The notes below the pieces were generated by a model. The model had not been told where the DNA came from. It did no database searches and was given only the letters and a program-made list of their open reading frames with translations. From Actinomycetota bacterium (lineage in GTDB: Bacteria; Actinomycetota; Geothermincolia; Geothermincolales; RBG-13-55-18), in contig JACIXD010000003.1 of NCBI GenBank assembly GCA_014360645.1, positions 124,001-188,000 of the forward strand: a DNA stretch of 64,000 bases. Direction: 5' to 3'. How positions within the stretch are numbered: position 1 is the first letter of the stretch; each line of letters begins with the position of its first letter. Position numbers and translations under genes: made by a program. Of the stretch, positions 11,379-14,552 are shown piece after piece.

Positions 11379-12029
11379 ATGAAGGGAAAGAGGCACCCGG
11401 GAAAGGAGGCAGGGGAGGGGGAGAGGCGGCGCCGCAGGGGGAAGCTGCTCGTCGTCCTGGGCATCTCCCTCATCCTCCTAGGCCTGCTGGCCCTGGCGGG
11501 GGTCTACGCGTACATCTACTTCACCGACCGGCGGGCAGCGAGGGCCCAGGAGGAGTTGCGGCGGGAGTGGGAGAGGGAGCCTCCCTCCCCGGAGAGCGGC
11601 GAGGTGGGGGTGGGGGACGGCATAGCCCGCATCATCGCGCCCCGCATCGGCCTGGATGCCATTGTGGTGGAGCTGTGGGGGCTGGACGACGCCGAGAACC
11701 TCAAGCGGGGACCCGGGCACATCCCCGGCACCGCCTATCCCGGGCAGGCGGGGAACTGCGTCATCTCCGGTCACCGCACCACCTACGGGGCCCCCTTCCG
11801 CCATATCGAGCAACTGACGGCGGGGGAGAGGATAACCCTGGTCACCGCCTCGAACCGCTACGTCTACGAGGTCTACGAGCAGCGCGTGGTGCAGCCCTCC
11901 GACCTCACGGTGCTGGAACAGGGGGGAGATCCCAAGCTGACCCTCACCGCCTGCCACCCCTGGTATAGCGCGGCGCAACGCATAGTGGTAATCGCCAGGC
12001 TGGTGGAGAGCACTCCCAGGGAAGGATAA
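11379..12029 (+). CDS. Sortase family transpeptidase (class D/E type)
   Basis: Membrane-anchored cysteine transpeptidase that would attach sorted proteins to the envelope. 216 aa: basic N-terminus, one transmembrane helix at about residues 23-45, then the sortase barrel. The catalytic triad is visible: His in SGHRTTYG (about residue 130), Cys in TACHPWY (about 190) and Arg in SAAQRIVV. RBS GAGAGG before ATG 11379. It follows RNase G by 12 bp, so may be co-transcribed. No LPXTG-like substrate is seen in the window; the CAP-repeat protein downstream lacks a sorting signal. Confidence 0.9.
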   Translation: MKGKRHPGKEAGEGERRRRRGKLLVVLGISLILLGLLALAGVYAYIYFTDRRAARAQEELRREWEREPPSPESGEVGVGDGIARIIAPRIGLDAIVVELWGLDDAENLKRGPGHIPGTAYPGQAGNCVISGHRTTYGAPFRHIEQLTAGERITLVTASNRYVYEVYEQRVVQPSDLTVLEQGGDPKLTLTACHPWYSAAQRIVVIARLVESTPREG

Positions 12030-12078
12030 GAACCAGGGAAAGGGAGGCGGGACCGGAAATCGAGACCGGAAAAATAGA

Positions 12079-12106
12079 GACCGGAAAGTGGGCAGGCTTT
12101 CCGGTC
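12079..12106 (+). terminator. Strong hairpin after the sortase gene
   Basis: GACCGGAAAG (12079-12088) pairs perfectly with CTTTCCGGTC (12097-12106) across an 8-base loop. There is no U-run, so this may be an RNA-stabilising 3' hairpin or rho-assisted terminator. A second weaker hairpin (GCCAAAA at 12110 with TTTTGGC at 12132) follows, and TTTTTTCTTCCCC occurs further down at about 12178. Confidence 0.45.
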
Positions 12107-12432
12107 GAGGCCAAAACTCACTCGGCGTAGATTTTGGCATTATCCTTATCGGCGCTTCCGCCCCCATCCTTTAGAGGTTTTTTCTTCCCCCGCAGGGGCC
12201 TATATCGACCTCCGGCCGGGATGAGGCGAGGCATCCTTCCCGCGCCCGTCGTCCAACCGGAGTCGCGGCCCCGCCCCCCGCGGTCAGCAGTGCCTTCAAC
12301 CCGCGCATCCGGCCCGCTTATTGCGGCATGAATTCCGGGAAAACGCGGCTCGGTTCAGGGAACCCGTTGAAGAGGAGGCGCCGTTCAGGAAAAGACGCAT
12401 CCTGATGCTGCTGGCCGTAGATCCGGCCTTTA

Positions 12433-12438: not shown

Positions 12439-12509
12439 TTTGTGTCCGGGCTCAAGGAATCCGGCCGCCCTGACGATAATGGAAACGGACATTGAGAACC
12501 GCATATCCC

Positions 12510-12602
12510 TGTAGGTGATAAAGGCAAACTCTTCCGAAAGGAGAGGGCGCAAAGCCATGGGTCTAAGGCCGCGCAAGCGGTTATGATCGCCAGGTTGCCG
12601 CC
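12510..12602 (+). ncRNA. Cyclic-di-GMP-I riboswitch aptamer (GEMM-I)
   Basis: Matches the GEMM-I core in order: AAAGGCAAACT, a GAAA tetraloop closed by C-G (CGAAAG), GGGCGCAAAGCC, GGTCTAAGG, then TATGATCGCCAGGTTGCC. The TCTAAG/TATGA pair looks like the 11-nt tetraloop receptor that docks the GAAA loop. The Vc2-type core GGCAAAC-n-GACGCAAAGCC-n-GGCCTAA-n-GGTTACC is reproduced with conservative changes. It senses c-di-GMP in cis and lies just ahead of an intrinsic terminator and the CAP-repeat gene. Whether ligand turns expression on or off cannot be told from sequence. Confidence 0.92.
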
Positions 12603-12612
12603 TCATAAGCGA

Positions 12613-12647
12613 CGCCCTTTCCGTGGAGGAAAGGGCGGTTCGTTTTT
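12613..12647 (+). terminator. Riboswitch expression-platform terminator
   Basis: CGCCCTTTCC (12613-12622) pairs perfectly with GGAAAGGGCG (12628-12637) over a 5-base loop, then GTTCGTTTTT. It begins about 10 nt after the aptamer and ends 50 nt before the CAP-protein start, as expected for transcriptional control by the c-di-GMP riboswitch. Confidence 0.85.
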
Positions 12648-12698
12648 CGGGGAACGGGAGAGTTGCCACCGGCCTCGGGGACAAAGGAGAGGCTGACG

Positions 12699-14552
12699 AT
12701 GAAGGGGCTCACTCGGTGGCAGAAGGGCGCAACACCTCTACTCGCGATCGTCTTTCTCGCCCTGACCGTGACCGTACCGATGATCCTTCCGGCCGTGGAG
12801 GCCGCCGCGGCGGTCGATGCCACGGCCGCGGAGGCCCGCATGCTGGAGCTGGTCAACCAGGCGCGCAACACGGCGGGCCTTCCCTCCCTCTACGCGGAAC
12901 GGCAGCTCACCGATTTCGCGCGCGCCTATTCCGCGGAGATGATTCAGTACGGGTTCTTCGGGCACGTCTCGCCGGCGTCCGGCAACCTGCAGCAGCGCAT
13001 CGTGGCCAGGGGGATCACCGGCTGGACCCTGGCGGGCGAGAACATCGCCAAGGCCCCCAGCGTGGAGGTGGCCTTCGAGGCGCTCATGAACAGCCCCGGA
13101 CACCGGGAGAACATCCTGCGGGCGGAGTTCAACTGCATCGGGGTGGGGGTGGTGGCGGAGGGGAACACCCTCTACATCACCCAGGAGTTCATGTGCTTCT
13201 CCCCCATCCCCGAAACCGCTGACCGGGAAGGGAACATCGCGCCCGCGCCCGCCGGGACCTCGCCCTCCGCGCCCGTGCCCTCCGCCCCGCCGTCCAACAG
13301 CTTCGACTCCTACCTGCTGCTCATGAACCCCAACCCCGAGGACGCGAGGGTGAAGGTGGACTTCCAGGGCGAGGACGGCGGCATCCGCAGCTTCTCCTAC
13401 ACGGTGGCGGCGGGCAGCCGCTTCACGGTCCCGGTGCGCGAGACGGTGGGATGCGGCTCCTTCTCCGCCCAGGTGGAGAGCGACCTCCCGGTGCTCGCGG
13501 AGCGCGCCATGTATTTCAGCTACGAGGGACGGCGCGGCGGCCACGACTCCATCGGCGCCAGCTCGGCCTCCCGGACCTGGTTCTTCGCCGAGGGCTACAC
13601 CGGCGACAGCTTCGACACCTGGATCCTGCTGCAGAACCCCAACGACAGCGAGGTGGCGGTGACCCTGAACTTCATGCGCCCGGACGGGGCGGTGATCACC
13701 CGCCAGGTGAACATCCTCCCCAGGCGCAGGCACTCCGTGCACGTGGACGAGATCCCGGGCCTGGAGTCCGCGGACGTCTCCACACAGGTGGTGGCGGATC
13801 TCCCGGTGGTGGCGGAACGCGCCATGTATTTCAGCTATGCAGGAAAGGACGGCGGCCACGGCTCCATCGGCGCCAGCTCGGCCTCCCGGACCTGGTTCTT
13901 CGCCGAGGGCTACACCGGCGACAGCTTCGACACCTGGATCCTGCTGCAGAACCCCAACGAGGCAGCCACCACGGTGACCCTGAGGTTCATGAAGCCTGAC
14001 GGCAGCGTGGTGCAGAGGCAGGTTAGCGTGCCCGGGCGCCGTCGCTACACCGTGCACGTGGACGAGATCCCTGGCCTGGAGTCCGCGGACGTCTCCACCT
14101 CGGTGACCTCGGACCTGCCCATCGTGGCGGAGCGCGCCATGTACTTCGACTACCGGGGCCGGCGTGGAGGGCATGTGACCGTCGGCGCCGCCTCCCCCGC
14201 CGAGAGCTGGTACCTGGCGGAGGGATATACGGGAGGGGAGTTCGACGAGTACGTCCTCCTCCTCAACCCCGGTGAGGAGAAGGCCGTGGTGAAGGTGGTC
14301 TTCATGCGCTCCGACGGCCTGAAGGTGGAGCGCGAGGTGGAGATCGGTCCCCACGCCCGCCATACCATCCACGTGGACGAGGTGGAGGGCCTGGCGGACG
14401 CCGAGGTGAGCACCGAGGTGAGGTCCTCTTCGCCGGTGGTGGTGGAGCTGGCGCAATATTTCAACTACCGCGGCATGGCCGACGGCAACAACGCCATGGG
14501 AGCGAGCGAGCCCTCCAGGAGGTGGTATTTCGCGGAGGGTTGCGTGCAATAG
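12699..14552 (+). CDS. Secreted CAP (SCP/PR1)-domain protein with 105-residue C-terminal repeats
   Basis: 617 aa with a Sec signal peptide (hydrophobic core LLAIVFLALTVTVPMIL). A CAP domain spans about 46-170, with FGHVSPASGN, GENIA and SPGHRENIL, the signatures of bacterial CAP proteins. After a Pro/Ala linker come beta-rich repeats, each around WFFAEGYTGDSFDTWILLQN and VHVDEIPGLESADVST...VAERAMYF. Repeat landmarks fall near residues 291, 396, 501 and 606, exactly 105 apart; the protein stops eleven residues into the last unit (RRWYFAEGCVQ). RBS AAAGGAGAGG decides the start at 12699. No LPXTG or C-terminal anchor is seen. It is under a c-di-GMP riboswitch, so likely a surface or adhesion factor; function inferred. 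Confidence 0.9.
   Translation: MKGLTRWQKGATPLLAIVFLALTVTVPMILPAVEAAAAVDATAAEARMLELVNQARNTAGLPSLYAERQLTDFARAYSAEMIQYGFFGHVSPASGNLQQRIVARGITGWTLAGENIAKAPSVEVAFEALMNSPGHRENILRAEFNCIGVGVVAEGNTLYITQEFMCFSPIPETADREGNIAPAPAGTSPSAPVPSAPPSNSFDSYLLLMNPNPEDARVKVDFQGEDGGIRSFSYTVAAGSRFTVPVRETVGCGSFSAQVESDLPVLAERAMYFSYEGRRGGHDSIGASSASRTWFFAEGYTGDSFDTWILLQNPNDSEVAVTLNFMRPDGAVITRQVNILPRRRHSVHVDEIPGLESADVSTQVVADLPVVAERAMYFSYAGKDGGHGSIGASSASRTWFFAEGYTGDSFDTWILLQNPNEAATTVTLRFMKPDGSVVQRQVSVPGRRRYTVHVDEIPGLESADVSTSVTSDLPIVAERAMYFDYRGRRGGHVTVGAASPAESWYLAEGYTGGEFDEYVLLLNPGEEKAVVKVVFMRSDGLKVEREVEIGPHARHTIHVDEVEGLADAEVSTEVRSSSPVVVELAQYFNYRGMADGNNAMGASEPSRRWYFAEGCVQ
13547..13960 (+). repeat. Direct repeat: two identical 99-bp blocks 315 bp apart in the CAP-protein gene
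   Basis: Bases 13547-13645 are identical to 13862-13960. Offset is 315 bp, exactly one 105-residue protein repeat. Flanking parts of the repeats have diverged, so the identity suggests recent gene conversion or selection on this block. Confidence 0.93.

Follow-up and report, generated by a model that had tools for sequence, protein, structure and literature searches.

A c-di-GMP-I riboswitch behind a WhiG-type promoter precedes a secreted CAP-domain protein gene in a hot-spring actinobacterium, a candidate double gate for one second messenger

Cd1 of Clostridioides difficile is a transcriptional OFF riboswitch of the c-di-GMP-I class, and the nucleotide position governing selectivity between c-di-GMP and cGAMP has been named (PMC9262584). 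The Bacillus riboswitches Bc1 and Bc2 belong to the same class and have long expression platforms followed by surface-related genes (PMC11218506, PMC4933901); the name 'Cap' in PMC4933901 refers to a collagen adhesion protein rather than to the CAP domain. In Streptomyces and Rubrobacter, the messenger is read by a protein, as c-di-GMP arms RsiG to form the RsiG-(c-di-GMP)2-WhiG complex and WhiG is blocked; FliA and WhiG have one promoter consensus in common, TAAA N~15 GCCGATAA, and single-motif RsiG was reported in Rubrobacteria and Thermoleophilia only (PMC8325347). The locus described here resembles each of these systems in part.

The window, a stretch of 64,000 nucleotides, comes from a hot-spring member of the Actinomycetota in a Candidatus Solincola-like family. 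The genomes analysed, its own (G000) included, were assemblies, mostly MAGs: 15 genomes of the Solincola-like family, and 147 genomes for the co-occurrence of RsiG and the riboswitch. The set of 14 leader and aptamer sequences consisted of 13 loci of the family and that of G016, which belongs to another family of the same order. A first-pass annotation of the window had proposed that a c-di-GMP-I (GEMM-I) riboswitch and a terminator control a secreted protein with CAP-domain repeats, in an interval beginning at 12510; the regulatory unit begins at the promoter, at 12452.

The aptamer lies at 12513–12602 on the plus strand. It scores 74.8 bits with RF01051, whose gathering threshold is 35, at an E-value of 7.6e-13 and over model positions 1–87 of 87, with every conserved element aligned, confirming the proposed aptamer, and it is the only c-di-GMP-I aptamer in the genome. 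Across the 14 sequences, 98.7% of the cells in the three aptamer helices were paired, four pairs had changes on both sides, and the covariation score exceeded those of all 500 shuffles. Such double-sided changes occurred in P3b and were absent from P2, as would be expected if an antiterminator and a latch also bind P2.

The aptamer probably binds c-di-GMP. Variants of GEMM-I specific for 3',3'-cGAMP exist, and sensing of this or another cyclic dinucleotide was considered here; cGAMP specificity was judged unlikely because the selectivity position, aligned at model position 11, is G and not A. The full-length RF01051 match also speaks against another ligand, as does a genome that encodes both RsiG and GGDEF enzymes, making this reading highly improbable. 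The occurrence of GGDEF proteins, on which the first-pass annotation had staked its proposal, was borne out by nine matches; eight of them exceed the cut-off, and the GGEEF motif is intact in at least three.

The downstream gene (12699–14552, plus strand, ATG start at 12699) is preceded by a Shine-Dalgarno region, AAAGGAGAGG, at 12683–12692 and encodes a secreted protein of 617 aa with matches to PF00188 and PF18986. As had been described from the sequence, this is a signal-peptide CAP protein with 105-residue repeats: the CAP domain spans residues 49–164 (PF00188, 54.5 bits against a cut-off of 21.1) and is followed by DUF5719 repeats, whose landmarks WFFAEGY, WYLAEGY or WYFAEGC recur at residues 294, 399, 504, and 609, exactly 105 apart. 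In the window protein (residues 580–617) and its orthologues, the C-terminus is a conserved WYFAEGCV(x) whose cysteine is near-terminal, and it looks like a fifth repeat truncated at a fixed point. A CAP domain with a signal peptide is also found in the YkwD-type CAP/SCP (PF00188) secreted proteins of bacteria, which differ from the present protein in that here the domain is fused to DUF5719 repeats and placed under predicted riboswitch control. No other PF00188 gene was found in the genome, and relatives of the protein are found in Candidatus Solincola daggyaiensis and in MAGs of related Actinomycetota.

The riboswitch was present in 13 of the 15 family genomes, in a single copy except in G014, which has two, and every riboswitch-bearing genome carries a copy 5' of a CAP orthologue. 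The same pairing occurs in G016, and most loci with covered flanks retain the gene order sortase-riboswitch-CAP-rplU. These data uphold the assignment of riboswitch and terminator to the CAP gene, a control that is predicted from this conserved arrangement. Outside the family, the first genes behind 73 c-di-GMP-I aptamers included 17 type IV pilins (N_methyl), 15 CAP genes, and five genes for GH26 enzymes, so that outside the family only type IV pilins are a commoner target than CAP. CAP proteins stand behind c-di-GMP-I aptamers in six other actinobacterial families, seven in all, indicating that the pairing is recurrent in the phylum. The first-pass annotation had regarded this pairing as undescribed: no publication describing it was found in the openly accessible literature searched, but the pairing is broader than the single case envisaged, with 14 further loci in the six other families. 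At L041, L042, L048, L116, and others, a WhiG-type promoter and a c-di-GMP-I riboswitch precede type IV pilin genes and, at five loci, genes for GH26-type secreted enzymes. The second copy of G014 (L040, G014:C158), with diverged promoter and latch, precedes a different large secreted protein resembling a glycosidase.

A sortase gene (PF04203, class-E-like) is the syntenic upstream neighbour at 11379–12029 on the plus strand. Its adjacency had been pointed out correctly, but a functional link to the CAP protein is unsupported: neither the window protein nor any orthologue has a C-terminal LPXTG-type signal with a membrane anchor (two of the sequences are incomplete or masked), and we rejected a sortase partnership on this ground. 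The likely sortase substrates that were observed are adhesins under c-di-GMP-II control, encoded at other sites of this genome.

Upstream of the riboswitch, a predicted promoter of the WhiG/flagellar type was located at 12452–12479 on the plus strand, with the -35 element TCAA(G) at 12452–12455, a 16-nt spacer, and the -10 element GACGATAA at 12472–12479, matching 10 of 12 consensus positions. The family loci read CTCAAGG-N-GTCGATAA or close variants at this place, and the promoter is conserved in all 13 of them and in G016. When 100 nt upstream of each of 88 actinobacterial c-di-GMP-I loci were scanned at 12 scored positions with shuffles as the expectation, 51 loci reached at least 10/12 (1.2 expected) and 19 reached at least 11/12 (0.06 expected). 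Neighbouring 100-nt windows had no site of at least 10/12, either further upstream (0 of 87) or downstream (0 of 89). Positions outside the scoring were conserved as well, namely a C preceding and a G following TMAA. The 28 CAP loci included 18 with a promoter scoring at least 10 and 25 with one scoring at least 9. A sampling of G000 for WhiG-type sites gave 26 against 9 for the reversed pattern, many of them within reading frames.

A WhiG equivalog scoring 402 bits (cut-off 343) is encoded in the genome, where xerC-like and rpsB-like genes flank it. The genome also encodes an RsiG of 102 aa with a single motif (PF22802, 67.3 bits against a cut-off of 27), in which the motif E(X)3S(X)2R(X)3[Q/H](X)3D is intact as ESRISYQRRILHGKID. 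A motif pattern with Q alone missed this protein, and allowing H yielded the recurrent reading frame. The orthologue in G007 matches the solved RsiG chains 6pfj and 7lq2-4 (PDB). At L182:863-1806 (minus strand, G000:C6), rsiG is directly followed by the gene for a zinc-ribbon/FHA protein, presumably similar to GarA, and then by an apparently MerR-like gene. A WhiG orthologue, a single-motif RsiG, and a flagellar-type promoter are shared with the RsiG-WhiG system of Streptomyces and Rubrobacter, and pilins are a target class common to that system and the related phylum members considered here (PMC8325347). Unlike in that system, the WhiG-type promoter here carries a second, RNA-based c-di-GMP sensor, and unlike in the reported distribution, RsiG is found in a further lineage. 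The term riboswitch does not occur in PMC8325347, and the openly accessible literature that names riboswitches and RsiG together consists, by titles and abstracts, of general reviews.

RsiG was found in 63 of 65 genomes with c-di-GMP-I riboswitches versus 36 of 82 others, a raw co-occurrence in which kinship is not weighted. The clearest exception, G038, is without RsiG, without a sigma factor at WhiG level, and without a WhiG-type promoter; in G146, the sigma factor and promoter are present and RsiG was not detected. These observations bear on a simpler reading, in which an ordinary c-di-GMP-I OFF switch stands under the flagellar sigma factor FliA and its promoter is part of the motility regulon, with RsiG playing no role here and the CAP protein being a surface protein of the motile phase. 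The shared promoter consensus suits this reading, and the genome has a second sigma factor of the FliA/WhiG family (216 bits) beside a CheY-like gene, which could read the same promoter. However, several genomes of the family retain the promoter with no second sigma factor of comparable score among their listed matches: WhiG stands alone among the matches listed for G006, G010, and G014, and the next sigma factor in G005 is far weaker (145 bits). Moreover, RsiG tracks the riboswitch across the phylum, and 13 genomes of the same class that lack both the riboswitch and RsiG retain WhiG-family sigma factors. We consider control by FliA unlikely and favor use of the promoter by WhiG, which RsiG would probably bind in a c-di-GMP-dependent way.

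A perfect 10-bp hairpin, CGCCCTTTCC-GTGGA-GGAAAGGGCG, followed by the U-rich GTTCGTTTTT, forms an intrinsic terminator at 12613–12637 (plus strand), just as the first reading of the sequence had it. In the relatives, its arms are nearly invariant and its loop is variable. Folding of aptamer against terminator had been suggested as a source of alternative states. The two are not in conflict, since the terminator has no overlap with the aptamer and the minimum-energy fold contains both, and the alternative that excludes the aptamer is a proposed antiterminator on P2. Here the 5' arm of the terminator, CGCCCTTTCC (12613–12622), complements the 3' strand of P2, GGAGAGGGCG (12540–12549, plus strand), over 10 bp with one G-U pair. 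With the RNA 3' end at 12622, the antiterminator ensemble reached -48.6 kcal/mol versus -36.7 kcal/mol for the aptamer fold, about 12 kcal/mol better; once the terminator 3' arm is transcribed, the folding energies favor the terminator state. Because the full-length RNA at equilibrium prefers the terminator, the ON state must be kinetic. In the 14 sequences, 96% of the antiterminator pairs are kept, and covariation is silent on this helix because it is nearly invariant. The leader thus has what a transcriptional OFF riboswitch comprises, a terminator compatible with the aptamer and an antiterminator that excludes it, although the latter complementarity is weak in G003 and G016, where it is no better than in shuffles.

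From this anatomy we infer a kinetic OFF switch, in which the ligand would have to stabilize the aptamer against a strong competing helix. The ligand should favor termination, as aptamer and terminator are compatible and the sole strong aptamer-excluding pairing found is the antiterminator. The same aptamer fold and conserved core as in Cd1 and RF01051, a downstream terminator, and an antiterminator drawn from aptamer strands place the leader near Cd1, from which it differs in that the antiterminator uses P2, a downstream putative latch would capture the aptamer 5' half, the target is a CAP protein, and the promoter is of WhiG type.

The putative latch is a conserved strand 3' of the terminator, CGGGAGAGTTGCC...GCCTCGGGGA (12655–12681, plus strand), complementary to 12506–12536. 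It pairs with the conserved 5' leader TCCCTGTAGGT (12506–12516, plus strand), which forms the upstream strand of the long-range helix and the start of aptamer P1, and with the GGCAAACUCUUCC of the aptamer. The duplex amounted to -26 to -36 kcal/mol in the 14 genomes, and in 12 of them, including G016, none of 200 shuffles was as good. Of its pairs, 88% were kept, compared to 40–61% when the alignment was slid, with no significant covariation. This segment probably serves to hold the antiterminated state, and it may affect translation too.

The extension of the latch to near the ribosome-binding region also fits a riboswitch that is an ON switch or acts mainly on translation. Together with WhiG control, this would give an incoherent gate and expression at intermediate c-di-GMP or in a pulse; incoherent dual regulation has been described for Bacillus Bc1 (PMC11218506). 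In G004 (L103), the terminator is absent and the aptamer and latch strand are retained; this naturally occurring variant might work solely through translation. Against such a scheme, the aptamer and terminator fold without conflict, and the strong pairing found to exclude the aptamer is the antiterminator only. We regard an ON or translational switch as quite unlikely and continue with the OFF switch.

With a probability of roughly two in three, judged from sequence, we propose that the CAP gene is expressed only at low c-di-GMP and that one messenger gates it at both initiation and termination. WhiG would read the CAP promoter; at high c-di-GMP, RsiG armed by the messenger would hold WhiG and no transcript would start. 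On transcripts that do start, the aptamer would sense the messenger during transcription. With ligand, it would stay folded and the terminator would form; without ligand, the 5' arm of the terminator would displace P2, and RNA polymerase would read through the resulting antiterminator. The freed 5' strand of the aptamer would then be captured by the latch, which would keep the leader ON and perhaps expose the ribosome-binding region as well. With an OFF switch, both gates would have the same sign and the response should be sharp, with little leak. The recurrence of the promoter/riboswitch arrangement across the phylum suggests that the same signal shuts surface genes off twice. Bc1 and Bc2 share with this locus the riboswitch class, the long expression platform, and surface-related downstream genes; they differ in their targets and in having no WhiG/RsiG layer, and Bc1 has two terminators.

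A second WhiG-type promoter, TAAAG N15 GCCGATAA, lies divergently at 12146–12173 on the minus strand and matches 12 of 12 consensus positions. It precedes a predicted conserved small RNA of ~70 nt (12067–12139, minus strand), composed of a hairpin with the loop CTACGCCGAGTG and an intrinsic terminator at 12106–12079. The small RNA has no Rfam match and occupies this site in 12 genomes of the family, lying at a contig end in G013; an alignment of 11 sequences was 88% identical with a fold z of -5.5. Its loop has a 12-bp complement, GCUCACUCGGUG, at CAP codons 3–7 (12707–12718, plus strand), and in the window none of 300 shuffles was as good as this duplex (-24.1 kcal/mol). Of 12 genomes, 10 retain this complementarity, G009 and G013 through wobble pairs. 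Its loss in G003 and G005, and the fact that both hairpins fold alike on either strand in some genomes, would also suit an accidental complementarity of hairpins that are only a bidirectional terminator or a repeat element. We find this doubtful, given that the minus strand has its own WhiG-type promoter and T-run, that conservation is near letter-for-letter in 12 genomes, and that wobble preserves the pairing in two of them.

A model of the small RNA, R1, gave weaker matches elsewhere, and all those examined lie on the antisense strand just 3' of c-di-GMP-II aptamers of two class variants. These loci are upstream of genes for SdrD_B/SpaA proteins of ~1100 aa, LPXTG-anchored in all five ends read; with their LPRTG or LPATG ends, the adhesins are likely sortase substrates. 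At L235 (G000:C19) and L236–L247, genes for large SdrD_B/SpaA adhesins follow c-di-GMP-II riboswitches (RF01786/RF03169), and the small RNA is antisense to an element of their leaders. The duplexes between the small RNA and the adhesin leaders comprise 54–60 bp, a strength due in part to how the matches were found, which does not explain their common location. We hypothesize that the small RNA is a trans-acting antisense link between two riboswitch regulons. A wider proposal, to which we give even odds, is that Actinomycetota c-di-GMP-I riboswitches generally lie within the RsiG-WhiG regulon, with control through both sigma release and nascent RNA, and that the Solincola-like family adds a WhiG-dependent small RNA whose pairing with both the CAP mRNA and the leaders of the c-di-GMP-II LPXTG adhesins couples low- and high-c-di-GMP surface programmes.

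The WhiG-type promoter with its RsiG context, the proposed antiterminator and latch, the likely OFF sign, and the predicted divergent small RNA are what the present comparison adds to the first-pass annotation. The c-di-GMP biology of Actinomycetota is known mainly from Streptomyces. If the proposed double gate is correct, a single second messenger would be sensed at two steps in the expression of one gene, initially by a sigma-withholding protein and then by the mRNA itself, and serial gating of this kind should sharpen the response and suppress leak. It would also show where c-di-GMP riboswitches act in the phylum and add another deep lineage to those with RsiG. CAP proteins, of largely obscure function in bacteria, would gain a physiological context, namely co-regulation with type IV pilins.
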